From Prorocentrum cordatum (lineage: Eukaryota; Sar; Dinophyceae; Prorocentrales; Prorocentraceae): 64,000 nt of DNA. Position 1 is the stretch's first letter; the number at the start of each line of letters is the position of its first letter. A model generated the notes under the pieces. It worked only from the letters and a program-made list of their open reading frames with translations, did not search any database and was not told the origin of the DNA. This document shows positions 35,401-52,653 of this stretch, one piece after another. The position numbers and the translations under genes were made by a program. Where the stretch lies: assembly GCA_963575745.1 (NCBI GenBank), contig CAUYUJ010014593.1, forward strand, positions 313,508 to 377,507, read 5' to 3'.

Positions 35401-35411
35401 GCCTGGCAACT

Positions 35412-35678
35412 CTAAAGTGAGCTGAGGGACGTCAGGAGCGGAAGCGAGCGTGCGCCCGTGGCCGTCTTGGTTCAAGCGGCCGGCCGTCTAAATATTGTCT
35501 GCGCTTCATCGCGAGGCACACTATCGCTATCGATACTAAAAGGCATCCCCTTTTACTTGACAGAGCTTTCCCTCTTGCGTTGGAACTATCGCTACTACGA
35601 TACAGCCGAGCTGGAGCTTGGCTTCGCCTGGGGCGAAGCTGCTGGCGGGGCCTCCCAGCCCCCTTCAAACTTGGTAGC
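35412..35678 (+). repeat. Left LTR-like direct repeat of the Copia element
   Basis: Aligns with 52389-52653 from 'ctaaagtgag' to 'ttggtag'; by eye roughly nine bases in ten agree. It includes the exact phrases 'gtcttggttcaagcggccgg' and 'cttcgcctggggcgaagctg' (the latter a small hairpin). Ends do not show a clear 5'-TG...CA-3', so exact limits are uncertain. Confidence 0.8.
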
Positions 35679-35751
35679 GGAGCTGGCCTATGGTGGTCAG
35701 CTCTAGCGCTACTCCTCACCATCCACGGCACTATCTGGTGGACTACAGCTA

Positions 35752-36983
35752 TGGTGGAACATCAGGGTGCAGTGGCATTGCGCGGAGGAGTGTACATATA
35801 TACGCAGTACCACAAGGAAACTTGCAGCGGCACCTCTGCTTCAGGGGAGGTCTCTCACTCCTATTCTACATCCTTGCGCTATTACACTCCTGAAGTCCAC
35901 CCACCTACTCCAACTGGAAATTTCTTCGAATGTATAAAGCATGGAAACATGCGATACGATATACTGCCGCCTCCGACCCCTCGCAGACTTACGACGACAA
36001 AACACGAGTCTCCACCGATTACACCCGATTACGACCTACGAGGCCATTGGATTGGGGCTACTATCTTTGGGCTCATATGGGTTGCTCTTGGATGTGCGGT
36101 GGGACATATGCGGGGCGGAGACGACGCTAGGACGACCGGCCCCCATTGGGACCCGGCCGGTCAAGTACCATTTCGCGATTTTGTTCGCGAGGTGCACGCC
36201 TGGATCAACGTGGCCACAGGCAACGTGACTCCCTCCCAGCAGGCCGCCGCACTTCAGCGCCGTCTTGGATGGCTCGCACGGACCATGGCCATGAGAATTC
36301 TCCCAGCAGTCATCAATTTTGGCGTCAATATAGGTGGTCGCCACACCGATGGCGCCACTTACATTATGTTCCTCTTAAGTGCGAATTTCGAGTACCTAGA
36401 AGAGGAACGCCAACTCAACTCTGGTTCGGCTCTCATTGATTTTCGTGTCCATGCAGGAGAAAGGATCGACCAGTCGTTAGCACGGTTCGAGATAGCCCGC
36501 TACGAAGCAGAAGCCGCCGGCTTCAACATCCCCAATTTCCAGATATTAGCAGTAATATTATTCAGAGCTCTGGGAGTGGGGACGTCGCGGGCACAGCAGT
36601 TCCTGCAGCCTCTGAACCACCATGCGCCGAGGGACCGAGCACAATTTGACGCTCTCCTCGAACGCACGAGGTCATATGCTCACATAGCTGAGAGACCCCC
36701 TGGCAATATCGGTGGTATTTTTAGTCGCGGTCACCGAACCGAGACCTTCCATGCAGAGGCCAATGCAGGGCAACCTGCTAACAACGTCTGGAGCGATGAT
36801 ATGCCGCCGTCTGGGACCACTACATTGTTGGCCCAGAATGGCGGCACGGCCTCGGGGTCTCAAGACCCTTGGGCCAGATCTAGGGGACCACCTGACGCGG
36901 TCTCCCTTGTACAAGCTATGGCCCTCATGGGCTCTGCGGGGCAGCCCGCCGAGTCCGACTTCGACTTCGGTACCGTCTTCTGA
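35752..36983 (+). CDS. Copia Gag, capsid-like part
   Basis: The frame is open from before 35580; Met 35752 or the Met near 35950 is a likelier start because the upstream part lies in the LTR. Residues after 'DPAGQVPFRDFVREVHAWIN' form a helical region ('GERIDQSLARFEIARYEAEA', 'ILAVILFRALGVGTSRAQ') like the capsid-forming part of Copia Gag. Two AGQPA hairpin insertions occur near its end (36765, 36936). It stops at TGA 36981-36983, and protein-like text continues in another frame. Gag would coat the RNA genome in virus-like particles. Confidence 0.65.
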
Positions 36984-37428
36984 TGATGAAGCTACTACGC
37001 TGGATTACTCTGATATGCCTACCCACCTTACTGTAGAGCAGCGTGCTCAGTGGTTTTTTTGGGGCTATCAAAAACACAAGCGCCGTTGGCGGAGATTCAC
37101 GAAGAAACCAGTCAGCAAAGTAAGACGCATGGCACGGCGAACACTCACAGGAAAAGGCAAGGGTCGAAGTAAAGGCAAAGGCAAGCGTCGGCGACTACAC
37201 GGTAGAGGCAGACTAGCATTCCTAGCATCTCTCACTGGGCCTCAGCATGAAGAAATGTTTTTTTGGCGCTGGCAGGAACCGTGGGCACACGTCAGGTAAA
37301 GGTGAAGGGCGACGAGGGAACCCAAAGGATGCCAACGGTACAACTATGGAGTGCGACATATGCCACAGTACACAACATGTCCGACGCGAATGCCCTCAAG
37401 GCGATGGGGGGGGGGGGGGGGGGGGGGG
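36975..37428 (+). pseudogene. Copia Gag, basic linker and CCHC zinc knuckle, two frames
   Basis: From ~36975 a second frame reads 'DYSDMPTHLTVEQRAQWFFW', then a strongly basic stretch ('KGKGRSKGKGKRRR') and 'GPQHEEMFF'. At the T7 run (37257-37263) it passes to a third frame ('CFFGAGRNRGHTSGKGEG') that holds a perfect zinc knuckle 'CDICHSTQHVRREC' (C-x2-C-x4-H-x4-C; 37351-37392). The knuckle binds the element's RNA. The third frame ends in a 24-G run (37406-37429) where the frame changes again. Confidence 0.75.
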
Positions 37429-37429
37429 G

Positions 37430-38057
37430 CAGGGGTCCGTCAATGCATTTGGCTCAAACGGACTCCGACATGCAGTGCGTCGACTGGGTGTGTTTTATGG
37501 CCGACCCTGCTGACGGCTCAGCCACAGTCATTCATTTCATGGCTGCCAGGGATTTGCGTGCCAGCATGAACCTCGAGGATTACGCCGACGATCTGTTCGA
37601 AGAGGTGTTCACTGGCCGCGGTGACATCGACTTGGCAGAGTGGCTGGGTATACCCACCGCGGGGCAACCTACAGAGATTGAGTTCGTCGACAACTTCCAC
37701 ATGCCTTTCGAAGATGACTTCGGCATGGCGGGGGCGCCCGCGGACTTTGAGTCTACCATTCCTGCAGCAGATGAAGAAGTTCGTGCCATGCTCTATCCTC
37801 GGGCGATTGGAAATCCGACAAACGTGGAATCGATCAATGATGATCCATTGCGGGGAAGCCCGCGAGACGCTGGTGACCTATCCGAACGCATTCAATGTGA
37901 GCTTGGACAATATGAAGAATGTAAGTGCACTTCTGTTGCGTCAGATCGGTCTGCGATCACTCCGAATCAATCGCCGCGTCGAGTACCCTTCATAAAGAAA
38001 AAGACAGCACGACGATCCAAGTCTGTCGCCAATGGACGATGGAGACGAACGCGATGA
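37430..38057 (+). CDS. Acidic Gag extension, unknown
   Basis: Open from the G run to TGA 38055-38057. Text is rich in Asp/Glu ('LEDYADDLFEEVFTGRGDID') with two AGxPA hairpins (37659, 37728), and ends in a basic tail ('KKKTARRSKSVANGRWRRTR'). In Copia polyproteins such a segment lies between the knuckle and the protease. No domain recognised. Confidence 0.45.
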
Positions 38058-38232
38058 CCGCGTGGTCCGTCGCGATCGAGCCCCCAGCTTCTCACGGGCT
38101 CGGGTGCGAGCCCGCTCCAGCGGCGCTCGTTCGAGCGGTGTTCAGCGCCCTCGCCCTCCTGAGGCAGGGGCTCTAAGTGGCCCGCCAGGGACGGCGCCGA
38201 GAGCGCACGCCCCCCCCCCCCCCCCCCCCCCC

Positions 38233-39064
38233 AATGGGGGAACTGCTGCTGAGAAATGAAACTGCCTCGAGACGACCAGCATTACGAAGAAGAACATTCA
38301 GGCGGCCACTTGCAGAATTTAAAGGGTTTGGAACAAGCCTGGATTGGCTCGTCAGCAAATACCTGCTGAGACGATGCAGTACTGGCTGGACAGAAATTGG
38401 ACAGAACATCAAATCCGACACTGGTCATCTCTTCGCCAAGTTACACGGAACGACGATGGCGCTATCATTCAATCAAAGAAGGGACAGACTAAAGAAAAGG
38501 TAATCATGCGTAATCACAGAAATGGCCACCATCGAGGATCGACACGCGCATCGAGGCGCATGCTGTACATGCCCCAGCTATGCCGACCACAGGCTCGGCT
38601 GTCCCATGAGACACCCATCAAAAAGTCCAAACTTCAAAACGACACCGTGGGTTTTGTCACATGGAGATGGTCGGGGCAAATGTACGGATCCCAACAGAAC
38701 GCCATTCCATAAACGGATGACTGAAGGGAATTACCTTCCTGCCACAGCGACAGAAATTGAACGAACGAATGCGATCCAGAATAGCTTGACACCTATTCAT
38801 CCTCTGGTGCAGTTCAATCGCGCTTGGCATGCAGGGAAGAATGCCGGTTATACGCCAGAAGAAGATTGCCGGCCAGATGTCTATGAAGCTGAAGATGAAG
38901 ATGCTGAAATGGCGGACGAGGTTGATCCTGCGGATGCCGCCCTTGGCGACGGTGAAGCAAGTGGCTCGGGTAATACAGACGGTGCGTGTGATTCTGATAC
39001 TCCGATCGACCCCAAACGCGTTGTCGCAAGAGACATGGATCTCTCTCGGCAGGCGCGTTGCTGA
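38233..39064 (+). CDS. Hypothetical ORFs of the Copia element
   Basis: After a 23-C run (38210-38232), frames read 'QQIPAETMQYWLDRNWTEHQ' (from 38344) and, after a frame change near 38520, 'ACCTCPSYADHRLGCPMRHP', a Cys/His-containing stretch, followed by an acidic tail ('EAEDEDAEMADEVDP') to TGA 39062-39064. A zinc-binding role is possible but unproven. Unknown function. Confidence 0.4.
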
Positions 39065-39177
39065 CCGAGCCGAAGGTGTGGGCTGGATCATTACTTGCAT
39101 AGCTGAACGACGTAGCGCAGACAACTAACTATTTACTTGGCGAAAAAAGAGATCAACACCAAGTTCCTTTTCAGAGC

Positions 39178-40100
39178 ATGGCCCTCAGGAGGCCAGGTGG
39201 TGAGGATTTGAATCCTGGCCGGGGTCCCATAAAACGTGGTCGCCGGTTTGCTCCTGGAATACTGGCGGGAGCCACGGCAAAGGCAGCGCCCAAACAGAAG
39301 CCCGAAACGATCGTTTTCCCCTCGTCTTCTGATTCAGATTCTAGCTCAATAAGCCCATCTCTTGGCCCTGATCATCCCAAGCCTAAGGAGAAGAAGCGTA
39401 AGGGCCCAGGTGATGATCGTAACCTTGGGGATGTCAAGAGATATGCAGGGCAACCTGCTGAGCAACACGCTGATCGACAACGATCTAGAGGTCCAGCAGT
39501 GGCTGCTGCAGCAGCCAGGTTCCAGGGCGCCAGTGCGCCTACCCCAAAGGATCCTGTTCCACGTCGCGGCCCCTCATCTGGTCGGACGCACAGGCCAAGA
39601 TGCATGCCTATTTTGGAGGCAGGAACAAGGGGGCGCATCTTCCACGAGGCGCATTGAGAAACTCTTGGCTACTACACCAAAGATACCGGGAGCAGCGCCC
39701 AGGGACAGAGATATCGATATTTACAACACCAAGGAGAAGGAACACCAAGGCTTCGACATCAGTTCCCCGCGAGGAACTCCATGGACGCCCAGAGGTTCCG
39801 CTGGTGCATCTTCATCAGCTGCGTGCGCAGCAACGTCTGCAGCGCCAGCGCCACAGGCGGCCCCACGTTCTGCGGGGCAACCTGTTCAGAGCTCTGCGGG
39901 GCAACCTGCTGGTAGCCCAGCAGGGCAACCTGCCCTCGTGCTGGAAGTGCCACCGGAATGCAAGAGCTATTGGGACAGGCTGCGTTCAGGCAGCTGGATG
40001 AAGATCAATCCAGCATATGATCCGCGAAGTGATGATGGATCTGATCGCTACATGGTCGTGCAACGCAACATCATGGACACAGCTGTCCACGCTGACGAAG
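39178..40100 (+). CDS. Low-complexity N-terminal part of the Tpt1-like ORF
   Basis: Starts at Met 39178 with Lys/Arg/Ser-rich text ('SSSDSDSSSISPSLGPDHPK') and changes frame between about 39460 and 39650. It continues through an Ala/Pro-rich stretch holding four hairpins within 500 bases (39445, 39872, 39896, 39920). Probably a disordered linker leading into the phosphotransferase domain. Confidence 0.45.
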
Positions 40101-41170
40101 GTGCACGCACGCGCCAGTCAGTGCGCAACATTATGCAGGGACGCCCTGCCCTCACGTTGGATTTAGAAACGGAATATTTGAATGACGTCCTTGTCACGGA
40201 AAAGCTCCACAGGCCGAGGCTCGACCATAGAGAAAAGCGTGAGGTATCTGAGTGGCTGACAACATCCCTCCGTCACAAACCATTTCATCATGGTAAATTG
40301 CCAGATAGATTCATTAGTGAAGTTACGTCCTATGACGAGTACGACGGCTGGGCCGATCTGTCGCAGCTACTCAACACATGGCCCGCGGAAGGATACGAAT
40401 ACTACCACCGTGAGCATCTCGACACGGTACGTCGTGCGCTTAAAAATCGTCACTGGGCGTATTAGGCCTATGCTGTCTTGGAGCTCATCGGCGTGATAGA
40501 TGAGTCCGGAATGAAAAAGAACATGCTGTAGATCAAGAAGATGGGGTGTGCCGATATGACTGACGACACCTACTTCATCCGCCCGTCCAACGGACATAGC
40601 AGCCCTGTCATCAGGTGCCCAGAACCCCATATGCATGAGGATCACGGGCTTATCAGCGCCTGGGGCACCTCGGTATTTCATTCATGGTACTCAATGGGAG
40701 CACGTGCCGATTATTTTCGGCTTTGGTTCATTATGTCGCGCCGACGACACCATTAAGAAGAGGAGGGGCAGGCAATTTGTGCATGGATGCCCATGCCTTC
40801 CTGGTGACAGTAGAATCCAATCTGGTTTACGCATGGATTCTGAGGTCCTGATCATGGCCAGTCTGAATATTTTGATTCGGGACAATATCCCAGTGTGGTG
40901 TTCGGCGAACGACATCGTCATGACAGCAGGCCGTCATGGCAGGATCCCTCCTACTCACATCGTCCAGTTGATCGGGGTCTTGCCAGGTTACGATTGTCAG
41001 TCCAATCGTGCGGGACAGCTATGGATAAACCCCTTATCTTTGAAGGACGACAACCAGACGTACACGAGTACTAGCACTGATGAGCTGTGCGAAGTTCGCA
41101 CTGGCCCATCATCATTAAAGATTTTGTTTGTTCCAGGTACCCCCTACAACTTGAAGTGTCCCGAACTGCA
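40100..41170 (+). pseudogene. Tpt1/KptA-like RNA 2'-phosphotransferase domain
   Basis: Ordered family features: 'EVSEWLTTSLRHKPFHHGKL' (the L-R-H N-terminal motif; 40240-40300), 'YDEYDGWADLSQLL' (the D-G-W-x-x-x-x-x-L-L motif), 'DTYFIRPSNGHS' (the I-R-x-x-x-G-H-S motif; 40567-40602), 'YFIHGTQWEHVPIIFGFGSL' (H-G-T plus I-x-x-x-G-L), 'RGRQFVHGCP' (R-x-x-V-H), and 'GLRMDSEVLIMASL' with 'DNIPVWCSANDIVMTAG' and 'GRIPPTHI' (seen in Tpt1 as the C-terminal V-L-x-x-D, x-S-x-N-x-V and P-P-x-Y-I segments). Family enzymes remove an internal 2'-phosphate from RNA using NAD. The Arg/His residues at the motifs are present. TAGs at 40463-40465 and 40529-40531 and a frame change near 40,640-40,670 interrupt it. 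A Copia-borne Tpt1-like domain is unexpected. Confidence 0.78.
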
Positions 41171-41927
41171 CCTTATTGTATTTTCAGAGGTGTTCATGAT
41201 GAACGCATACCGTGCAGGGGCACCTGCAGGGGGATCTGACGGATCATGGATGCAGGGTCAGAGCGCTGATGTGGCGGGTATTACGCCAACTGGTATTACG
41301 CCTACTGATACGCTATGCGCTAATGATCCGTGGCGTGCCCAGGTTCAACAGCTGCCAGTACCTGCAGGGCAACCTGCTTCATTTGCTCTAGTGAGCCGAG
41401 CTACTACACCAGTTGGCACTCCATACAGTATTGGGGGCACCAACAGCCTGCTGGCGAGGCTCCAAAGTATTCGTTCGGATCCGCATCTCTATCAGGCCCT
41501 ACAGGCAACATCGCCGCGCGCATCGCCACGTCCAATTGCGGGGCAACCTGCTTTCCCAGACCAATATGCCATACAGGGGAGTTTAGTTGGTCAGCAGGAA
41601 TGGATGCACCGTCAGAGGCGGGAGGCCGCCCAGAGCATGCGGAGGGATGGCATAGACCTCCCTAGTGCTAACTGGACGCCGCCGTGGGGGTATGTTCCGG
41701 ATCCAAATCCTTCTCCGGACAACCCCGATCGATTTGGTCATGTACCAGCATTCTTTAGCCACCCGTCTTACGACCCAACAGATGTTGATCGTCCAACGGC
41801 AGCGCCAATGGATCATCCACTCTTTCCTGATTATCATGCGCAAGTGAGTGGAACTGATCGGGTGGGAACACTGCCTGAAAACCATATGTTCGGGCGACGG
41901 CCGACGCTTTCTATCAGTCTCAGCTGA
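41171..41927 (+). CDS. C-terminal tail of the Tpt1-like ORF
   Basis: Continuous with the preceding domain in the same frame ('VFMMNAYRAGAPAGGSDGSW', then 'RLQSIRSDPHLYQALQATS'), ending at TGA 41925-41927. Three hairpin/AGxPA copies lie in it (41214, 41364, 41538). Pro/Asp/Ser-rich; no domain recognised. Confidence 0.45.
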
Positions 41928-41995
41928 TGCGTGGTTCAGAATGTGCATCAGGCGTGCCAGGACAGATACCTCACTATGGGTAATTTGCACCCTCC

Positions 41996-43246
41996 ATGGA
42001 TCGAGACGCACAGCAGCAGGCCCCAGGCCTAGTGCCGCCACCGACCATGGGAGAAATGCGCCCTGAGATCCTGGCCATACACGAGGCGCAGCAAGCCAAC
42101 TTGGCCACGCAGGCCACGCGGCAGCGCCGACAGCAACATCGCCAGGCCAACAGAATGCTGAGCCGCGCAGGGCAACCTGCTAACCACAATGCAGCAGGGA
42201 CACCTGCGAGCAGTCCAGCTATGGATGCATCGATGCAGCTGCCAACCTTCCCACCTATTCGACTCGAAGCTGGCGAATCCACCCTGGAGCGACAGATGCG
42301 CATCAGGCCAGCGGCAACACCGCCTATCATCAGTGACGGCGATTTCAGTAAGTGTGCCATATGCCTGAACCTGTTCATGAATCACGACAAGATCTGGCGT
42401 CTCCAGTGCGGTCACATATTCCACGCACAATGTTGGGATCGTGTGGTACACGCCCATGTAGATCGACAGGTGGCTGGTAACATGGAAGGTTCCGCGCGTG
42501 AGGCCCCCTGTGCCATACGCAGGGGTGTTGGCCTCATTGCTGCTGAGTTCCACTTCGCCCTTGCTGGCTATCAAGAAGCGCATGACCGTCATGAATACAT
42601 ACTTCAGAGAGCGAGCGAGCTCAGGGAGCTCCGTGAAGAGCTCAACCGCGTTACAGCCATGATGACCAGCACTGCGGAGATTTTGACGACGACTCCTGCG
42701 GGGATACCTGCATCATCGGCCAACGCGGGCTTAGTGATGGAAGCAGCTACACTTGCAGGGGCACCTGCCGCTGACGTACTTATTCCACTGGCAGCAGAGA
42801 CCGATAGCAATGCAGGGGCACCTGCCCGATCTGCTCCACCTTCGGTACATGTGAATGATACATGGTTGAGGCGCGTGAAAAGGGCAACTGATAGGAGCGC
42901 CCAATGGCTTCAATCTTCACACGCATACATGCCGTATGGGCGAGACCTCCGTTCACGCAGTCAGCGCAGAACTGAAAGACCGGTAAGCATGCGCAGTGGT
43001 AACAGTGGGATCTCTGAACGCGATGTGTTTCATACGGTACTTATAGTGAATGCCGGCGGCCAGATGGGCATGTGCGCAGAGGAAGATACGTTCATGAATA
43101 TACCCACTGTCTCTACGTCGCACCCATACACGTATGACGGATACCCTGCCGCTCGGATCTTTGAGAAGAGCCCGATTACAGAGGAAGAAGTGCGTGGGTA
43201 CATGAATGTATGCACATCTCTGTCAAGAAGCGATTGGGTGTTATAA
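41996..43246 (+). CDS. RING-H2 zinc-finger protein encoded inside the Copia element
   Basis: 417 codons from Met 41996. Residues ~118-180 hold 'KCAICLNLFMNHDKIWRLQC', then 'GHIFHAQCWDRVV' and, after a 20-residue insertion, 'APCAIRRG'. This gives C-x2-C, C-x-H-x2-H-x2-C and a final C, but the last expected Cys of C-x2-C is Arg (codon cgc near 42519). RING-H2 domains usually act as E3 ubiquitin ligases; loss of one ligand may impair zinc binding. A coiled-coil-like segment follows ('LRELREELNRVTAMM'). Six AGxPA hairpin copies lie in the ORF. The C-terminal third ('HTVLIVNAGGQMGMCAEEDT') is unrecognised. It lies between the Tpt1-like and protease ORFs on the same strand. Confidence 0.72.
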   Translation: MDRDAQQQAPGLVPPPTMGEMRPEILAIHEAQQANLATQATRQRRQQHRQANRMLSRAGQPANHNAAGTPASSPAMDASMQLPTFPPIRLEAGESTLERQMRIRPAATPPIISDGDFSKCAICLNLFMNHDKIWRLQCGHIFHAQCWDRVVHAHVDRQVAGNMEGSAREAPCAIRRGVGLIAAEFHFALAGYQEAHDRHEYILQRASELRELREELNRVTAMMTSTAEILTTTPAGIPASSANAGLVMEAATLAGAPAADVLIPLAAETDSNAGAPARSAPPSVHVNDTWLRRVKRATDRSAQWLQSSHAYMPYGRDLRSRSQRRTERPVSMRSGNSGISERDVFHTVLIVNAGGQMGMCAEEDTFMNIPTVSTSHPYTYDGYPAARIFEKSPITEEEVRGYMNVCTSLSRSDWVL

Positions 43247-43345
43247 CAGAGGCGCCGCGAAGGCCCACGCGGTGCGACAGTATCCGAAGTCCCTGGACTA
43301 TTCGGCGAACGCCATGAATTAGCTCTGGCAGCCAACAGCAGGACC

Positions 43346-44219
43346 ATGATCAACGGTACGTTGATTATTTTATTTGATATTGGTAGTAATGATAATATCA
43401 TCGGTTTGAAGACGGCACAGAATTTCGAGCAGATATCACGCTCCCACGGGCGCGCCATCAAAAGGTTGAACCTATCAAAAAGATTGTATGTGTCTGGAGC
43501 GGGACACGGTGCCGCAATTTGTGATAAATCCCTGCACTGGAAAATTGCGTGCAAAGAATGGTAAGAGTGCGGGGGGGCCTGCCGTGCCGAGACTCGACAC
43601 ATACTCTGCAAATGTGGCTGGGGGCTCTGGAGAGAACCTCCCTGCTATTCTGGGTCTGAGGAGCATGTCCAGCATGCGGGCCATCTTGATCCTCGAGCAG
43701 GGGCACGAGAAGATGATCATCCCTGGAGTGGAAATGTACAAGGCTCTACTTGGAAAGGGTGCCAGGGTATTTGATTTGATGAAGACGCCCTCCGGGCACC
43801 TGGCACTCAAGCCCGATGAATACGAGAAGGTTACGGAGGACCAAAGGTCGATGTCCTTCATGATCACGGCCAATCCTCACTGCGAGGAAGCTCCGTTGCT
43901 TGTCAACGAGGCTTCCGACCCAGAGCCAGCTGCAGGGACACCTGCTGTGGGCGATGCCCATGCGTGCATGATGTCGCAAGACACGCAGGGCATCAGCTCT
44001 TCCATTAACGAGGAGACGCTCGCTTTCACGATCCAGTCTTTGGCGGGCAACACCTTGAGAACCTGGCATCGCAGAACTGCGTCTAGTGGGATTATCCCTA
44101 CCTCGGTCGACAAAGACTTCGCCCTCCACAACCTGCAGGCGAAGATCTATCAGGCCATTCACGAGGAGGGGGAGAAATGGACTCCTCCTGACACACATGC
44201 AGGGACACCTGCATCATAA
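43346..44219 (+). pseudogene. Copia aspartic protease
   Basis: The first frame reads 'INGTLIILFDIGSNDNIIGL' (D-I-G-S in place of the usual D-T/S-G; 43352-43410). After a frame change near 43490 the next frame has 'LPAILGLRSMSSMRAILIL' (the I-L-G flap/second motif) and 'EKMIIPGVEMYKAL'. This matches the retropepsin-like proteases of dinoflagellate Copia elements, which cut the polyprotein. Two AGTPA hairpins (43932, 44199) lie in the C-terminal part, the second directly before the stop at 44217-44219. Confidence 0.7.
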
Positions 44220-44610
44220 AATTGTATTTTTGAGAGTTTGATATATTTACTTCGAGCAGCAGTTCTGCAGCGCAGCACGGCACTGGCATTTGGACCCCCC
44301 CCCCCCCATTAGGAGGGCGGGGTCCGTCAAACGAGCGACGGGGGCAGGCGCGCGCCACGGCCACTCGCGCTTGCAAGGACGGGCCGACCACTCTGGTGCT
44401 GTCAGCAAGCGCGGGGGAACCTGCAATCGTTTCCCAGGCACCGGCTGCGCGCGCCAGGGGCCGCGGCAAGCCCGGCTGCGCGGCTGCCGCAGACAGCAGT
44501 GGACCAGGCTGCGTGGCCGCTGCAGAAAAAGAAGCACTGTCGCATTATTAGCATTCTCGTGCATTCGTTATTGAGGATATACGAACAGCTCGCGCTGAAT
44601 CCCGAGCCCG
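44220..44610. other. Intervening DNA with C13 run and one hairpin
   Basis: Contains 'acccccccccccccatt' (C13 at 44295-44307) and a GCGGG-GGAA-CCTGC hairpin at 44411-44424. No coding-like frame bridges the protease and the next conserved region. Confidence 0.5.
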
Positions 44611-44617
44611 TGGATAC

Positions 44618-45606
44618 ATGTGCAACCGTATCGCACAGACAGAGGTGATGACCTCCACTGGTACACAGCATTTGGGTGCGCTACTTTCGGGCGATTACCA
44701 GCTGTCGCGGGTCGCAACACCTGCCGACTGGCATGTGAGGCTGCCTGGTAAGCGGGCAGGGCCACATTGCCAGCGTATCCAAAATCTGATGTCAAAAACT
44801 CGGGCTCTACGCATGACTGTTGCACTGGTGGGGCCACCGGGGCATCTCTGGAGACAAGGTGCCATGCGAGATGCGATCGAAGATCTTGATTTACAGGTCG
44901 TGCGCATGAGGTTCTGCCATTTCGGCCTCAAGTGCGACCTTGCGAAGAAATTGCCCCGCGGATCGTATCTGCAGTGGCAACTACGTGCAAACGTATCTCC
45001 ACCAACTTATGGGGATGCACATGCAACAGAGCAGGGAAACGTGCATATCCTACTGAGCATATTCTGGACTGGTACGGACAAGGTGCTCAGAAAGCCGAAT
45101 GGCGGAATAAGACATTAGCGATCATGACCGCAAGGTTGATCGATCAAATGGATTTACATAGAATGCAAAGAAACTATACAAGTGCTGTACATTTGACTAT
45201 TCATACTCGCGTGCATAAAGGAGTTCGAACTTACGTTCAGTCTCCTATGAATGGCCCTGAATGGGACCATGTCGTGAGACGGGTGACTATGAACCTGGGA
45301 GACAACGAGATCATCTTGGACATCCAGATCAAGGACCAACCGACTCGGTACAACTACAACGCACCATTACCAGATGGGGTCACTAACATCCGTACTCGAC
45401 TGTACTGGGAGCAGCCGGAACCAACTCTTCTGGGAAACGACAGCTCACGACCACGCTCAAGGCGAGTGGCGATCATCGATGACGCTCGTCTACCTCCCTC
45501 TTCGATTGAGCGCGGCAACGTGCCACCCTCTATTCCAGAATTTCGGACACTTAGCTTGCCAGAAAAAGAGCAACATACAGCACTACCAACAGATGCCAGA
45601 ATTTAA
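44618..45606 (+). pseudogene. Copia conserved interdomain region between protease and integrase
   Basis: The first frame (44618-44975) reads 'RMTVALVGPPGHLWRQGAMR' and 'VRMRFCHFGLKCDL'. Near 44,975 the text passes to another frame with 'CKRISTNLWGCTCNRAGKRA' and 'ILDWYGQGAQKAEWRNKTLA', then open to TAA 45604-45606. I recognise this block as recurrent in dinoflagellate Copia polyproteins, upstream of integrase, but know no biochemical role. The Cys pairs could bind zinc. Confidence 0.5.
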
Positions 45607-45743
45607 CAAAAGCGAAACAAAAGGCAGACACATAAGTTGGCACCACACCACGCAAGATACCCCAAATAGTCGAAGAAGGCAGCGACGATTGTGGAGACGA
45701 CCTCAAAGGACTCGGGTGTAGCTCGTACTGCACCGATGTACCT

Positions 45744-46662
45744 TTGGACTCCGACACGGATAGCAACGTCGAGGAGGATACCTGCATCGCCCTACCTGCG
45801 GGGCAACCTGCTGAATCCTACGCAGATGTATTCTCCATAATCTCCACCCTGTGTTATGGGCGACGCAAGAAGGTAGATATGTTAGAACTATGTGTAAGAA
45901 CCGGAGGCATCTCCCAGTTAGCATTCAGCCGATGTATGTCTTCAGGGGGGAACCTCGACAAACGTCTTTTCGCTGATCTTGGAAATAAGGAGGTCCAAGA
46001 TGCAGTGATGCACTGCTTAGACGTTTGCTTCGTTAAGGTTGTCATGCTACAAGCCATCTGCCGAACGACTGGCTGACCTTCCTACTTCAACGCCAGGGTT
46101 AAATACGACACCTGGCATGAGCATCACAAGGAGGATTTGCCGCGCATCAAGTTCCGGGGGAAGGTAGCTGTACGTCAAAATTAGCTTCGACGATTCTACT
46201 TACGAGAACAACCAGTTGGGCCTTGGGTGGATCAGATACCGCCATGGACTACGTTGGCCAACAGCAAGGGCACTTGCAAGGTACATATGGACCAATGTAC
46301 TACAGGCCTACGCGATTCCCATGGGAACTAATACGAAAACCGACTCATATCATGGCTAACCATCGCTTATTTTACGCGTTTTGGACGAAAGCGATGTGAT
46401 GGCCATCATCCACATGCGTCGGTGTGCAATAAAGAACTGTCCGTGGCTGCGCAGTATACGCCAAGGATGCAGTCGCTCTTTGTTGAAGCTGTTCAGATCG
46501 TACGCAAGCTTTTCCAAACAACTCGTGGCCCTTTCTATGGCCACCCATATTTGCCTACCGTGTTGGTGGCCAACGTACGGGGGCACGATCTGGACGACCC
46601 GAGTCTTCCCCGACAACCGGACAGCTCGATTACGAGACCACCCTAGGGGGGACTTGGCTGTC
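45744..46662 (+). pseudogene. Methyltransferase-like domain in the Copia polyprotein
   Basis: 'KKVDMLELCVRTGGISQLAF' resembles SAM-binding motif I (h-E-h-x-x-G-x-G-G). 'EVQDAVMHCLDVCFVKVVML', then 'QAICRTTG', occupies the place of the motif IV strand and loop. After a frame change at 46075, 'FNARVKYDTWHEHHKEDLPR', 'FYLREQPVGPWVDQIPPW' (an E-Q-P/E-N-P-like motif) and 'SKGTCKVHMDQCTTGLRDSH' follow in pieces, then 'KELSVAAQYTPRMQSLFVEA' (46426-46490). The block recurs in dinoflagellate Copia elements, and the motif pattern suggests a degenerate SAM-dependent methyltransferase fold. Activity is doubtful because the Gly-rich loop and motif IV are eroded. One AGQPA hairpin (45798). Confidence 0.5.
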
Positions 46663-46679
46663 CTGCCTGCGCGGATAAC

Positions 46680-48681
46680 GTGAATGTGCATTCTCCATCG
46701 CATGATCGGAATCCGAGACATTGCAGATGGTACGACAAGGATGACTACCACTGGGAGTGTCCGAGTTGCAAGAAGAACTACGGGAGTAACAAACCTGGAC
46801 ATGTACTAACACCTGGCAAATGCAAGTTTGCAAATCCTTGGAAGTTCCCCGACAATCATAGACAGATCCCGCCGGCTCCTGTCGGGCCGGCAGCAGGACC
46901 TGCACCGCCAGATTCTGCTGACGTTGCAGCACCTCCACCTGACGCACCAGCAGCACCAGCACTTACGCGACTGAGGGCGCCTAGACCTGGCCTGAGAGCT
47001 GGATCTACCGCAGGCGCAAGCAGTCGCGACATTATTGTTGGAAGACACGCTGCTGAGCCTGTTGCAGGGCAACCTGCCTCAAGCGGAGCCGGTAGTTCGG
47101 ATGACCACCTCCGACTACCACAGGTTAGAGTCAGACGTGGTCGACAGCAAGGTGGAGAAGCGCCTCCACCACCACCAGCAGGGAACCCTGCCGCACGACC
47201 ACGACTACCAGACTGGTCACGGTTCGATGTACAAATCAGTCTGCAAAATTTGCGAAGCCTTGACCCCAGCGTGGTAACACGCGAGTTGCGAAAGCTACAT
47301 TTACGCTGGTTCCATGTGAAAGAGCCTAAGATGAGACTCATCTTAAGGAAAACAGGTCTGGACAATGTTCGACTCAACCTCATCAAGGGCGTCTGCGATA
47401 CATGCGGAGAATGCAGAGCTTGGGACAAACCTGGACACACAGTTATGCCCCCTATTGCATTACCTGGCAAATTTAATGATGAAGTGGAATGTGACTTGAT
47501 GTCCTACAGGCAAGAACACAACATATTTCACATTATCGATCGTTGCATACGATGTGCTACTGGGATTGGAAATACCAGATAAAACGATGACTACTACCTG
47601 CAAACATATCATCTGTGCTGGATGCAGTTTGGACCAGCTAAGGTACTTTACTCGGATGGCGGAGGTGCCCTTAATTAGTGACACTGTGAAAGCAGTCCCC
47701 AAGGCCACAGGCACTGAACTTACAATGCGCGCGCGTGGACAGCACGCTACGGCGATCGAGGCCAGAAATGGCATCCTAAATCATGGGCTCCACGCAATGG
47801 AGGCTGAACTCAATATGTTAGACATACCTCTTGTGTTCACGAGACTACTGCACGAAGCCTTGTCTGCAGCCAGCGCATTCACTTTCTACAACGAGGTGTC
47901 TCCATACAATGCATTATTTGGGCGGCAACCAGCAATGCTCCCTGACCTCCCTGTTCTGGACCACGAGCAGTCGACAGAAACATCAGATCATTCTCGCGAG
48001 CAGAAGCGCAGGGTATGCATTGAGGCGATCACACAGGCCACGGCAGTAGCTAAGTTCAATCGTGCAGTACGCACAAAGACGACCACTACAGGTCAATATG
48101 GTTTGGACGAAGGAGATTTGGTTGACTACCATCGCCCTACGACTATTAAAGATGACTGGGGAGGTTGGAATGGCCCGTTCCCAGCTGCGAAGAATAATCC
48201 TGCACGGGGTCAGGTCATCATCCGAGTAGGCAGCCGGCATGTTCAATCACAATACGGCGATGCAAGACATTCGCTCTACATTGACGCACGCATCGCCCGA
48301 GAGATTGGCTTCGGTAACACTGCATTACGCACCGTGTTGACATTCGTAGCTAGCCTTTCAGCGGGGAGGCCTGCGTTGACATTTGGATATGTGCCGACCA
48401 AGAAAGGTACGCTTCAGATGACAACGGCAAGTCGCCGATCTCCAAATGTACACTTGGCTCCACAATATCTCCTCAGAAACTTCTTCCGTCTCGAGAATGT
48501 TGTTTCGGTCAGATTAGCCAGGAGCATTCATAAGCTACCCGCGGTTACTTATGCCGACAGTTGCACAGTTGTTCATTGCGATAACGATGTGGATACAGGG
48601 ATCCACTACTATGAAGCAGAAGGTACTGCTCTGAACATACACGATATCACTGGATCAGCACACTCACGTGTCATCCAATGA
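46680..48681 (+). pseudogene. Copia integrase, two frames
   Basis: Frame one has 'WECPSCKKNYGSNKPGH', a Pro/Ala linker with a hairpin (47064), then the pre-integrase zinc region 'LRKLHLRWFHVKEPKMRLIL' and 'VCDTCGECRAWDKPGH' (H...H...C-x2-C), then 'NDEVECDLMSY' with the first core Asp. A frame change near 47,575 leads to frame two: 'ELTMRARGQHATAIEARNGI' (carrying the core Glu), 'FYNEVSPYNALFGRQPAMLP', and a C-terminal 'YGLDEGDLVDYHRP' and 'GWNGPFPAAKN' typical of Copia. The middle Asp (usually S/T-D-x-G) falls in the decayed region around 47,600-47,690 and was not found. It inserts cDNA into the genome. Two further hairpin variants (47178, 48361). Confidence 0.8.
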
Positions 48682-48738
48682 CTGAAGTCCATCAAACCCC
48701 AGGCAGGCTTCGATCAGGATCTGTCAAAGTTCGAGGAC

Positions 48739-49473
48739 TTGGCTGACGCGCCGCCGCCTGAGGGAGCCGCTAGAGAGGCTTCAGAAGCCGAGCCAGAACA
48801 TGATGACGGACGGCTGTCTACGATCTACGAAGAATCAGAAGCTGATCTTGAGTCACATGTTACGGAGGTATGGCACGCAGAGTTGCGAGAGGAACAGGAA
48901 TTGCTGGAGGCAGCTCCACTAGAAAAGCTCTCTACCGTACCCACACAGATGGTTCCTGACCAGAGTGCGTTGATCACTGTAGCTGATGAACCGCGGGGAC
49001 ACCTGCCGAATTGGGGGCGCACTCATGATCCTGATACTGAGGAAATGTACTTCGCTCCCTTGTGCACCCTGGTCGGAAGACGGCAGCGATGGACTCGACT
49101 CTGACGAAACGGTCCATACGCTGAACTCTGCTTTACAACAGAGACGTCAAAGGTCGTCTTGTCCGAGCAGCAACAGATGCCGTTAGACGTCGGCCGGGTG
49201 ACAACCATGCGAGTATATGCTGCTGTCGCTGCACAGCGAGCTGCGGTCGTCGAGGACGACGACCTCCTCACCAAGGCTGGCATCCAGGCGAATCCCGAGA
49301 AAATTCCGAAGGCCCTTTTCACCGAACTTAAGACATTGTTCGACAATAAATGCTTCATTACCCTGTGACGTACCCAACCCATTTGTATCATGGGAAACGA
49401 GGAGTTGGCCGAAGCTTGCACGGACAATCAAATTGCAGGATCCGCTGTCTGATAGGTAAGCTACTTGGGACAA
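48739..49473 (+). pseudogene. Linker and N-terminal start of the Copia RT
   Basis: 48739-49104 is acidic ('EAEPEHDDGRLSTIYEESEA'). 49159-49368 reads 'VVEDDDLLTKAGIQANPEKI' and 'ALFTELKTLFDNKCFI', the segment that precedes the Copia RT fingers. It degenerates by 49,440 and is then interrupted by the 102-bp minisatellite. RT text resumes at ~50,693, so the array separates the two halves of one protein. Confidence 0.65.
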
Positions 49474-50630
49474 GATCAGCAGCCCTCGAAAGTGGCGACA
49501 GTTTCACAGATCGCAGCCCCCAGCAGCCCTCGAAACGCAGCGACGAGCGAGGTAAGAAAGTGGCGACAGTTTCGCAGATCGCAGCCCCCCAGAGATGGCG
49601 AGGATCCATTTGAATCCGCCGTGGGCACCCACTGTGCTGGGCCCCCCAGCAGGCCTCGAAAGTGGTGACAGTTTCACAGATCGCAGTCCCCCAGGGATGG
49701 CGAGGTCCCATGTGAATCCGCCGTGGGTATCCACTGTGCTGGGCCCCCCAGCAGGCCTCGAAAGTGGCGGCAGTTTCACAGATCGCAGCCCCCCAGGGAT
49801 GGCGAGGTACCATTTGAATCCGCCGTGGGTGCACACTGTGCTGGGCCCCCCAGCAGGCCTCGAAAGTGGCGACAGTTTCACAGATCGCAGCCCCACAGGG
49901 ATGGCGAGGTCTCATTTGAATCCCCTGCGGGTGCACACTGTGCGGGGCCCCCCAGCAGGCCTCGAAAGTGGCGGCAGTTTCGCAGATCGCTGCCCCCCAG
50001 GGACGGCGAGGTCCCATTTGGATCCGCCGCGGGTGCGCACTGTGCTGGGCCCCCCAGCAGGCCTCGAAAGTGGTGACAGTTTCACAGATCGCAGCCCCCC
50101 AGGGACGGCGAGGTCCCATTTGAATCCGCCGCGGGTGCACACTGCGCTGGCCCCCCGGCAGGCCTCGAAAGTAGCGACAGTTTCACAGATCGCAGCCCCC
50201 CAGGGACAGCGAGGTCCCATTTGAATCCGCCGCGGGTGCACACTGTGCTGGGCCCCCCAGCAGGCCTCGAAAGTGGCGACAGCTTCACAGATCGCAGCCC
50301 CCGCAGGGATGGCGAGGTCCCATTTGAATCCCCTGCGGGTGCACACTGTGCTGGGCCCCCCAGCAGGCCTCGAAAGTGGCGGCAGTTTCGCAGATCGCTG
50401 CCCCCCAGGGATGGCGATGCCCCATTTGAATCCGCCGCGGGTGCACACTGTGCTGGGCCCTCCAGCAGCCCTCGAAAGTGGCGACAGTTTCACAGATCGC
50501 AGCCCCCCAGCTGGCACGCAGCGACGAGCGAGGTCAAAGGCAGGGGGGAAGAGAGGGGCGGGAAGGAAGGAAGGAAGGAAGGTTCGCGCGAGCAGTGCTC
50601 TATTCAAAACGAGAACCCAACGCAGGAGGG
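49474..50630. repeat. 102-bp minisatellite, about ten units, inside the Copia element
   Basis: 'ggcctcgaaagtggcgacag' (with variants) recurs at about 49653, 49755, 49859, 49962, 50064, 50162, 50264, 50369 and 50471, spacing 98-105 and mostly 102-103. Each unit also has 'cagatcgcagccccccaggg' and 'gaatccgccgcgggtgcaca'. Because 102 is 34 codons, long frames stay open on both strands ('ESGDSFTDRSPP' on plus), giving false repeat proteins. The first and last units are aberrant and carry 'gcagcgacgagcgaggt'. The right flank to 50645 matches 70-185. Confidence 0.95.
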
Positions 50631-50692
50631 TTGGGACAAATGCAGGAGATCGTCAAAGCGTCGAACATCATAACTTCGAGGTGCGTATACAA

Positions 50693-51180
50693 ATGGGAAA
50701 TTCGTTAAGAACGACAAGGGCGAGATGGAGCGCACCATCCGACTTCGTCTGGTACTTCGGGGCTTCATGGACCTAGAAACTTTCGATGTAGAGACATTTT
50801 CGGGAACGGCCAGAAGGCCAAGCCAGATATTACTTGCCAGCGCGGCAGCGTGCAAGAGACAGTGGACCATTGTTCCCCTGGACATCAACATGGCCTTCCT
50901 CAAGGGATTGAGCTATCGAGACCTCGCCGGGGCAACTGGTGAAAAGGAACGTGCGGTGTGTTTTACCTTGCCGCCTGGGTCGGCGACTGTGCTCCGTGCT
51001 CTTCCAGGGTTCGAGAACAACGACGAGTCAAACCACTGCCTGCAGTGCTTGAAACCGGGCACAGGCACTAAGGACGCCCCCCGGGGGATTTCTCACTTAA
51101 GCTCAGGAGAACCACCAGTGGATTTGGCCTCCTACCTACGTCTTATGACGAGGGGTTCGAGACGAGCACTAACTTGCTCA
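50693..51180 (+). pseudogene. Copia reverse transcriptase (RVT_2), first part
   Basis: 'RTIRLRLVLRGFMDLETFDV', 'FSGTARRPSQILLASAAACK', 'IVPLDINMAFLKGLSYRDLA' (motif A with the first catalytic Asp), and 'CLKPGTGTKDAPR' (motif B region) follow in order. At the C6-G5 tract 51079-51089 the reading passes into the next frame ('SLKLRRTTSGFGLLPTSYDE'). RT copies the element RNA into cDNA. Confidence 0.88.
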
Positions 51181-52244
51181 CGGCCAAACATGTTGATGAC
51201 ATTAACATGGCCTGTACTGAGGTCACCATTGACAAGTATGTCAAACGTGTTGAGGATATGTTTGGCAAGTGTAAACTCAACCAACACACATATACGAGCT
51301 GTGCTGTAAGGTACACCAAGGATGAGGACGGCAATGTCACTTTGGATCAAGATGACAACATTAAACAGCTCTGTTTTATACAACACCCTGAATTGACCGG
51401 CGCGGACGCTGACGCTCAAGCGACCAAGATGGTGGGAGATATGTGTGTCAGCCGCAGAGGTTCGCTGGAATACGAATTGATCACGCAGGTTTGGTTGTTG
51501 GTCTATGTTGTACCCCTCCAGCGCGTCCAAGAACCGACCAATATTCAAGTGCGACGATTACACGCGATCACCAGAAAGTTGCAGGCCTGCCCGAAGAAGA
51601 TCGTCTACCAGGCGATGAACCCCACGTGCGAGGTCGACTTACATAGTGACTCAGGCGATCGACGCCTGAGTGGAGACTCCGATGACGACGTCAAAGGCTA
51701 TGGCATTCGCGGGGCAAACCTGCTACGACGTGGAAACACGTCATCTGGCAAGCCTGTCGTTCACTTGATTGATGTGCACTGCAAGTCTCACCGCTTGGAA
51801 GTCCGCTCAAGCTATTCAGCAGAGACACTTACAGCAGCCCATGATGTGGAGGACTGTTATCCCACGATTGTGACTCTGCGCGATCTCCATGCGGGGCCAC
51901 TCACGCGCACTACACTTGGGTTGGGTGGCCTGTGCATCGAGGTCACTCTGACCATCGATGCTGAGTCTGTCTTTTTATCCTTGTCAAGCAAAGACTTGAA
52001 GAAGCCGGCTGAGTGTACCCTTTTAGGACGCACAAGTTGGATACGACAGATGAAGGAGCGCGGAATCACGCATAGTATTCATTGGTGTGATGCCCGCGAT
52101 TTGACCGCGGATGGACACGCAAAAGGGAGCATTGACAGAGAACTGCTCCTACAAGTCATGGGAGGCATACAGACCTTCAAACACGACCTGGAGAGACATG
52201 CGCCATATCGGGCTGGCCGGACATCAAGTTCTGACGCCGCCTGA
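51090..52244 (+). CDS. Copia reverse transcriptase end and RNase H
   Basis: Open from before 51174 to TGA 52242-52244. 'STNLLTAKHVDDINMACTEV' carries the motif C Asp-Asp in the 'KHVDD' form usual for dinoflagellate Copia. RNase H follows: 'VVHLIDVHCKSHRLEVRSSY', 'SAETLTAAHDVEDCY', 'LTIDAESVFLSLSSKDLKKP' and 'IHWCDARDLTADGHAKGSID'. The usual acidic residues (Glu in S-A-E, Asp in D-A, Asp in T-A-D-G) are visible. A hairpin variant with one extra A (51709-51723) lies between the two domains and puts the AGQPA phrase out of frame. Confidence 0.88.
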   Translation, partial: FSLKLRRTTSGFGLLPTSYDEGFETSTNLLTAKHVDDINMACTEVTIDKYVKRVEDMFGKCKLNQHTYTSCAVRYTKDEDGNVTLDQDDNIKQLCFIQHPELTGADADAQATKMVGDMCVSRRGSLEYELITQVWLLVYVVPLQRVQEPTNIQVRRLHAITRKLQACPKKIVYQAMNPTCEVDLHSDSGDRRLSGDSDDDVKGYGIRGANLLRRGNTSSGKPVVHLIDVHCKSHRLEVRSSYSAETLTAAHDVEDCYPTIVTLRDLHAGPLTRTTLGLGGLCIEVTLTIDAESVFLSLSSKDLKKPAECTLLGRTSWIRQMKERGITHSIHWCDARDLTADGHAKGSIDRELLLQVMGGIQTFKHDLERHAPYRAGRTSSSDAA

Positions 52245-52388
52245 TGCGCGTGCCCTACGCTCGCGAGGGCAATTGGCTGACGGGCCCAACGCCTTTGGGT
52301 CCGTCTCCTTTCCTGTCTTTGTATAGGTTAGTAGCTGAATTTTTCTCGCTTTACAGATGGCGGACGCGCGCTTGGCCCCCCCCCGATC

Positions 52389-52653
52389 CTAAAGTGAGTT
52401 GAAGGACGTAGGGAGCGGAAGCGAGCGCGCGCCCGCGGCCGTCTTGGTTCAAGCGGCCGGCCGCCTAAATTTGACTGCGCCTCATCGCGAGGCATACTAT
52501 CGTTATCGATACTAAAACGGCACCCCCTTTTACTTGACATGGCTTCCCCTCTTGCATTGGGACTATCGTGGCCACGATGAACCGAGCTGGAGCTTGGCTT
52601 CGCCTGGGGCGAAGCTGCTGGCGGGGCCTCCCAGCCCCCTTCAACTTGGCAGT
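52389..52653 (+). repeat. Right LTR-like direct repeat of the Copia element
   Basis: Partner of 35412-35678 with scattered substitutions and small indels. A C-rich tract ('ttggccccccccc') lies directly before it, while a purine-rich polypurine tract is not obvious. It ends in 'cttggcag', after which the sequences diverge. Confidence 0.8.

Follow-up and report, generated by a model that had tools for sequence, protein, structure and literature searches.

A Tpt1/KptA-like RNA 2'-phosphotransferase domain inside a Copia-type retrotransposon family of Prorocentrum cordatum

We found that a domain resembling the RNA 2'-phosphotransferase Tpt1/KptA almost certainly sits inside a Copia-type LTR retrotransposon of the dinoflagellate Prorocentrum cordatum, as judged from anatomy alone. 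Removal of 2'-phosphates is the classical reaction of this family. The window analyzed here is a stretch of 64,000 nucleotides (assembly GCA_963575745.1, contig CAUYUJ010014593.1, positions 313,508 to 377,507 of the forward strand), in which positions 35404-52651 are occupied by an LTR retrotransposon of the Copia type that is complete, though decayed. The window copy of the element is dead; related copies elsewhere in the genome are numerous and many retain long open frames.

All six Tpt1/KptA motifs that an earlier note on this DNA had read in correct order are present between 40268 and 40913: LRH (40268-40276), DGW (40343-40351), IRPSNGHS (40577-40600), HGT (40683-40691), RQFVH (40770-40784) and SAND (40902-40913). 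Two in-frame stops, at 40463-40465 and 40529-40531, and a shift of frame somewhere from 40600 to 40683 break the domain into three pieces on the forward strand. Piece 1 (40238-40462; predicted RNA lobe, with LRH and DGW) ends at the first stop, piece 2 (40532-40634; IRPSNGHS) follows both stops in the frame of piece 1, and piece 3 (40635-41147; predicted NAD lobe, with HGT, R..VH and S.N) lies in another frame. The stretch 40635-41924 matches the PTS_2-RNA profile over positions 99-177 (29.3 bits, cut-off 26, E = 1.1e-6), while 39980-40462 and 40532-40753, searched singly, had no Pfam match. Using tblastn, 40238-40600 aligned with residues 1565-1686 of L017, an intact copy from elsewhere in the genome, and the stretch matching piece 1 is open-framed in a sister copy, L053, which is 78% identical to the window over the C-terminal piece and carries the whole domain in one open frame. 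Both open copies scored well above the same cut-off (L053, 58.6 bits, E = 1.1e-15; L017, 94.3 bits, E = 1.2e-26), as did a further scanned piece (89.8 bits), and these significant matches sustain the claim that a Copia-type retrotransposon encodes a Tpt1/KptA-like domain. The best score against the NCBIfam KptA equivalog was 36.8 bits, below its cut-off of 239; on these profile scores, the element Tpt1 is a distant member of the family and not the prokaryotic equivalog. Searched with an alignment, the element domain had its best PDB match in tRNA 2'-phosphotransferase 1 (7yw3, E = 4.2e-13). The family fold has two lobes, a winged-helix RNA lobe and an NAD lobe; structure models of the element domain covered the C-terminal part only, with mean pLDDT values of 64.9 and 68.6.

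To describe the family, we searched the 4.13-Gb genome (21,875 contigs) in six frames with PTS_2-RNA and scored the best 150 of 2877 first-look candidates, all of which exceeded the cut-off. By score and frame length, at least 143 places (71.3-91.5 bits) represent one element type, which we call lineage A and of which 31 places were read as sequence. Open frames reach at least 500 amino acids in 138 of the 143 listed places and at least 1000 in 118, two lengths (4482) being inflated by runs of N. The other seven places (L001-L007, 95.6-186.2 bits) look like cellular genes, and the host genome holds several distinct cellular-type Tpt1 genes (L001, L002/L004, L003 and L005/L006/L007). With the C-terminal piece of the window as query, the best 150 of 3946 candidates comprised the window itself and 149 further places at 58-78% identity. 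No place is common to the lineage A and window-lineage lists, giving at least 293 Tpt1-bearing places, a few equal-score twins among which may be duplicated contigs. The Tpt1 domains of the two lineages are only ~25% identical (67 of 253 aligned residues between L053 and L017).

Linkage to a reverse transcriptase (RT) was assessed by comparing the 143 listed lineage A places with the best 110 of 10,921 RT candidates. In 20 of 26 same-contig pairs, both domains lie on one strand with the RT 8.54-8.82 kb downstream of Tpt1, and in the remaining six they are far apart. For the window lineage, 150 Tpt1 and 114 RT places among the matches listed yielded six same-contig pairs: three far apart, the window at 10.5 kb (a distance that includes a 1.3-kb insertion) and two more loci with spacings of 9.2-9.3 kb. 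Further genomic copies of the domain are therefore linked to a Copia-type RT, where the earlier note had asked for a second one. Two candidate explanations were rejected, a chance motif match being ruled out by the profile, the copies and the linkage, and a host Tpt1 gene beside a transposon by the 8.5-8.8-kb spacing and the long open frames.

Most of the listed window-lineage RT places (108 of 114) belong to a young, near-uniform third subfamily related to the window element, with 68 at exactly 606.1 bits and many having an ORF2 of 2199 amino acids (for example, C10080:411468, C20766:812448 and C21099:158483). Among the matches listed, no Tpt1 place of either lineage was found at 8-11 kb from these 108 RTs, and the young subfamily may lack Tpt1 or have a lower-scoring one.

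Element anatomy was read from ten lineage A copies, picked for long frames. One of these, L017/L018, shows the order Gag with CCHC, long linker, Tpt1, linker, RING finger, protease, TGA and ORF2, the last in the same frame as ORF1 and containing a constrained domain, integrase motifs, an RVT_2 reverse transcriptase and an RNase H region. The placement of Tpt1 between Gag and protease of a Copia element thus holds, with the correction that a RING finger intervenes between Tpt1 and the protease. LTRs of ~250-300 bp, 96-99% identical, are present in 8/10 fetched copies (the 5' halves of the other two hold long runs of N), and 5-bp target-site duplications were seen by eye in five of the eight LTR-bearing copies. 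By tblastn, the window element is collinear with L017/L018, with between-lineage identities of 44-49% for Gag, 23-24% for Tpt1, 33% for RING, 36-42% for the protease, 43-53% for ORF2 and 62-70% for RT/RNase H; Tpt1 is the lowest among the recognized domains.

The window element is bounded by an identical 5-bp target-site duplication, TGGCA, at 35404-35408 and 52647-52651, which fixes the ends of the 5' LTR (35409-35671); these and all other directional features of the element lie on the forward strand. The 3' LTR (52386-52646), whose start is approximate and comes from the LTR comparison, is 89.5% identical to the 5' LTR across 267 columns. Directly after the 5' LTR lies a primer-binding site (TGGTAGCGGAGC, 35672-35683) that is the complement of the 3' end of tRNA-Met, and LTRs, a 5-bp duplication and a tRNA primer site, the features of Ty1/Copia elements, are thus all present. 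Four tRNA genes, all on one contig of the same genome, have the GGGCTCATAACCC loop and CCACGCTCCGCT before the last base, and one of them (L029) was scored as tRNA-Met with anticodon cat. The last 12 bases of the tRNA-Met 3' end, with A and CCA added (the CCA being inferred), are the complement of the primer site. From the GGGCTCATAACCC loop, we take the primer tRNA-Met to be of the initiator type.

The coding regions of the window element were located mainly by tblastn. The Gag region (35664-37263) is 44-49% identical to ORF1 of L017, and the CCHC zinc knuckle region of Gag (37253-37396) aligns with L017 residues 606-656, where zf-CCHC scored under its cut-off (18.5 bits against 20.8, E = 0.0021). 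The Gag frame opens inside the LTR, and two hydrophobic, membrane-like segments were seen by eye near the Gag N-terminus in both lineages (window 35664-36300 and the start of L017 ORF1). Downstream of Tpt1, the RING-finger domain (42197-42664) is 33% identical between lineages and matches zf-RING_2 over 42350-42454 (30.1 bits, E = 5.9e-7); in both lineages this RING finger, a possible ubiquitin ligase, precedes the protease and follows Tpt1, and in L018 it lies at the end of ORF1. The aspartic protease region (43367-43823) is 36-42% identical to L018 and has a DIGSN motif by eye, and the L018 protease piece had no Pfam match.

ORF2 begins with an N-terminal region (44558-45612; 43-53% identity), for which the L018 piece had no Pfam match over cut-off, and continues with a constrained domain (45840-46650, ends approximate; motifs DMLELC..GG and CRTTG) inside the tblastn match 45609-47675. 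Among lineage A copies, this domain has a pN/pS of 0.105-0.107 (L018:5702-6544, reverse strand; motifs DMLELCGGEGG and QPSCRTTG). Judged by eye from its motifs, the domain looks like a divergent methyltransferase; the L018 piece had no Pfam match over cut-off, no PHROGs match and no PDB match below E = 0.3, and L018 ORF2 residues 440-720 did not match Pfam DNA_methylase, the mark of DNMT-carrying retrotransposons. A putative integrase region (47300-47960, ends approximate) lies upstream of the RT, with HHCC and then D..D..E motifs seen by eye in both lineages; its L018 piece had neither a Pfam match nor a meaningful PDB match. A tandem-repeat insertion with repeated peptides (49357-50639) separates the tblastn matches of the ORF2 middle and of the reverse transcriptase and RNase H region (50640-52214; 62-70% identity to L018 ORF2). 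The RT piece of L018 matched RVT_2 (33.8 bits, E = 3.4e-8, cut-off 31.6), the whole L018 ORF2 scored under this cut-off (27.2 bits), and the window piece 51174-52241 alone had no Pfam match. Conservation of the putative RNase H region between window and L018 was seen by tblastn, with no Pfam match for the L018 piece.

An in-frame TGA (TCT TGA AGA TGG CRG GGC) separates the Gag-Tpt1-RING-protease frame from the integrase-RT frame in nine of the ten fetched copies (L018, on the reverse strand, and L010, L014, L016, L020, L022, L024, L026 and L028), the boundary motif being unmatched in the tenth. A hairpin follows 8 nt after the TGA (z = -2.35; 4 of 200 shuffles as good), and TGA and hairpin together constitute a candidate read-through signal. 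Downstream of the TGA, the next 150 codons show constraint (pN/pS 0.14). For the first 59 of these, changes are few, with a pN/pS of 0.54 and a stop in one of nine copies, compared with 1.16 for the 59 codons before. Because Tpt1, RING and protease precede the TGA and integrase, RT and RNase H follow it in frame, we infer that Tpt1 is made at the level of Gag and packaged.

Selection on Tpt1 was examined in 30 lineage A copies (two identical), leaving out a 31st, L045, with an in-frame TGA. Variable codons number 118, 93 and 246 of 291 at positions 1, 2 and 3, respectively. Median dN/dS was 0.19 for the finite-dS pairs among the 432 of 435 pairs with ten or more differences, many of them saturated, and 0.18 across the 266 pairs with dS > 0.2. 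By piece (8-10 fetched lineage A copies each, stop-bearing copies dropped), pN/pS was 0.20-0.23 for Tpt1, 0.07-0.12 for RT/RNase H, 0.09-0.18 for Gag and up to 0.46 for linkers. The Tpt1 domain is under purifying selection in the lineage A copies examined. The Arg-His-Arg-Arg tetrad (R37, H38, R141 and R209 of the L017 domain) is invariant in 30/30 copies, as is the HGT histidine; the S and N of S-x-N are kept in 29/30 and 30/30, and the first H of HIH in 29/30. The tetrad, with residues assigned by motif, is also present in L053 and the window pieces, and its correspondence to published residue numbers is assumed. The conserved active-site lysine position is F in the elements; this lysine of Tpt1 is reported to be conserved yet inessential (PMC6333775).

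A 39-row tree groups the element domains with eukaryote-type Tpt1, apart from 14 bacterial rows (100/99); no nearest relative was singled out for them, and no cellular row of the host joined them. The two lineages join in a single clade at 83/83, a value short of strong support; the branch of L053 is long, and the bootstrap did not settle. An insertion of 8-10 residues between the GL and R-x-H-x-H motifs occurs in both lineages and is absent from 26/26 regex-matched cellular rows, with five cellular rows unmatched; in host gene L003, dropped before the tree, a dissimilar insertion occupies this position. The simplest reading would be a single capture that preceded the split of the lineages, and separate captures by two lineages are not supported, given the single clade, the common insertion and the collinear place. 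The only close match outside this genome was P0002 (EukProt, labeled Pyramimonas sp. AAC.1; 190 amino acids), which is 73% identical to the element Tpt1 and groups with L052 (100/99), and which may be either a transcript contaminating the culture or a member of this element family from a different organism. The other 23 matches are 27-36% identical, the named ones being fish and fungal proteins. Neither the long polyprotein nor a 701-residue part had a match in the protein databases searched, and no relative was found among the viral contigs searched.

What the domain does for the element can be proposed from these data. We tentatively favor, at somewhat less than an even chance, a reading in which a Copia lineage took up a eukaryote-type Tpt1/KptA and kept it as a working enzyme that clears RNA 2'-phosphates in the particle. 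Tpt1 would be made at Gag level, and integrase, RT and RNase H only by read-through; the element protease would then cut Tpt1 free, to be packaged with the RNA. In the particle, it would use NAD+ to ADP-ribosylate and remove the 2'-phosphates of element RNA or of the tRNA-Met primer or, as an alternative chemistry, to ADP-ribosylate phosphorylated ends. RNA that had been cleaved and resealed, or 2'-phosphorylated, would thereby be reusable as template or primer. The most likely prediction for the element Tpt1 is that it would be an active NAD+-dependent enzyme on element RNA or primer. Cellular precedent exists in the removal of internal 2'-phosphates from tRNA by Tpt1/KptA, described also as the eraser of a stable mark (PMC9095486). 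Between lineages, Tpt1 is ~25% identical compared with 62-70% for RT/RNase H, which may reflect a changed substrate. Repair of a cleaved tRNA primer need not be invoked, because the primer site pairs with the 3' CCA end of tRNA-Met and a full-length primer would serve. Counting against the favored mechanism, several Tpt1 genes are already encoded by the host, and these should cover ordinary repair without a further one in the element. The low identity of Tpt1 between lineages, the F at the active-site lysine position and the young third subfamily, with no listed Tpt1 place at 8-11 kb from its 108 RTs, also weigh against it.

Other readings share part of this evidence. An unlikely but substantial rival is a conflict with the host, in which Tpt1 adds or removes RNA-end marks (2'-phosphate or 5'-phospho-ADP-ribose cap) against an RNA-cleaving or RNA-marking defense, or protects decapped RNA or cDNA ends. 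The identity of Tpt1 between lineages, the lowest among the recognized domains, is as in arms races, a RING domain adjoins it, capping of 5'-phosphorylated RNA and DNA by Tpt1 homologues has been described in vitro (PMC8053099), and viral KptA has been interpreted as one of the means by which viruses counter host RNases (PMC9503650); selection within lineage A is nonetheless purifying (0.18), averages that carry no sign of positive selection. Retention for RNA binding or as a structural piece of Gag, with no catalysis, strikes us as rather improbable: the domain does sit in the Gag-side polyprotein among long linkers, and cellular Tpt1 has an RNA lobe (PMC6333775), but binding alone would not need the near-complete conservation of the tetrad, the HGT histidine, S-x-N and HIH. 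That the whole observation reflects chance similarity, a transposon-hit host gene or an assembly artifact is hardly credible. The window copy taken by itself is broken, with one of three pieces passing Pfam, but this reading is already refuted by the Tpt1-RT linkage and has against it the number of places (at least 293), the long open frames, the constant RT spacing, the LTRs (8/10) and the duplications (5/8). A broader proposal, possible but doubtful, is that Copia particles contain, in Gag-like amounts, an element-encoded NAD+-dependent enzyme that erases RNA 2'-phosphates (or ADP-ribosylates RNA/DNA ends), so that template and primer stay usable in the face of a host system cleaving or marking RNA. 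The NAD+/ADP-ribose conflict network would thereby gain its first branch among retroelements, numbering hundreds of copies, perhaps thousands, in a single genome.

Compared with known systems, the element domain is like cellular Tpt1/KptA (Pfam PF01885; TRPT1) in its profile match (to E = 1e-26), its Arg-His-Arg-Arg residues and its eukaryote-type position in the tree, but differs in lying within a retroelement polyprotein, in its extra 8-10-residue insertion and in spanning 236 residues for 174 profile positions. KptA is reported to be rare in eukaryotic viruses, occurring in two RNA-virus polyproteins (Beihai picorna-like virus and Botrylloides leachii nidovirus) and also in sawfly nucleopolyhedroviruses and Bodo saltans virus (PMC9503650). 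The viral polyproteins resemble our case in embedding KptA in the polyprotein of a genetic parasite; unlike here, the carriers are RNA and DNA viruses, and the string 'retrotranspos' occurs 0 times in the main text of that article (PMC9503650). Orchid Ty3/Gypsy elements carrying an AlkB m6A demethylase are likewise large LTR elements with an extra RNA-acting enzyme, but are Gypsy-type, from plants and of other chemistry (PMC9289625). In the same source, a screen of 121 angiosperm genomes is described in which 15 extra domains passed the filter, all Gypsy-type and none Copia-type (PMC9289625). The LINE/DIRS retrotransposons of Symbiodinium that carry a DNMT, with counterparts in charophyte Gypsy elements, likewise come from a dinoflagellate and have captured an enzyme that modifies nucleic acids and evolves under purifying selection; they differ in element class and enzyme, and the abundant Symbiodinium Copia elements are described as lacking a DNMT domain (PMC5890265). 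Among the matches listed from the open-licence literature, no title or abstract start placed Tpt1/KptA in a retrotransposon, in agreement with the earlier note, which knew of no described retrotransposon carrying it. The Prorocentrum cordatum genome study is reported to have removed transposable-element genes early in gene prediction, which may explain why the domain went unnoticed (PMC10666404).

How to account for Tpt1/KptA in organisms that lack fungal-type tRNA ligation is regarded as an open question (PMC6333775, PMC8053099). A parasite that keeps its own Tpt1 under selection suggests that RNA 2'-phosphates or 5'-phospho ends may bear on reverse transcription or on survival; the element family also supplies many natural Tpt1 variants for testing. 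With it, an RNA-repair enzyme joins the captured enzymes of LTR elements, here in Copia.
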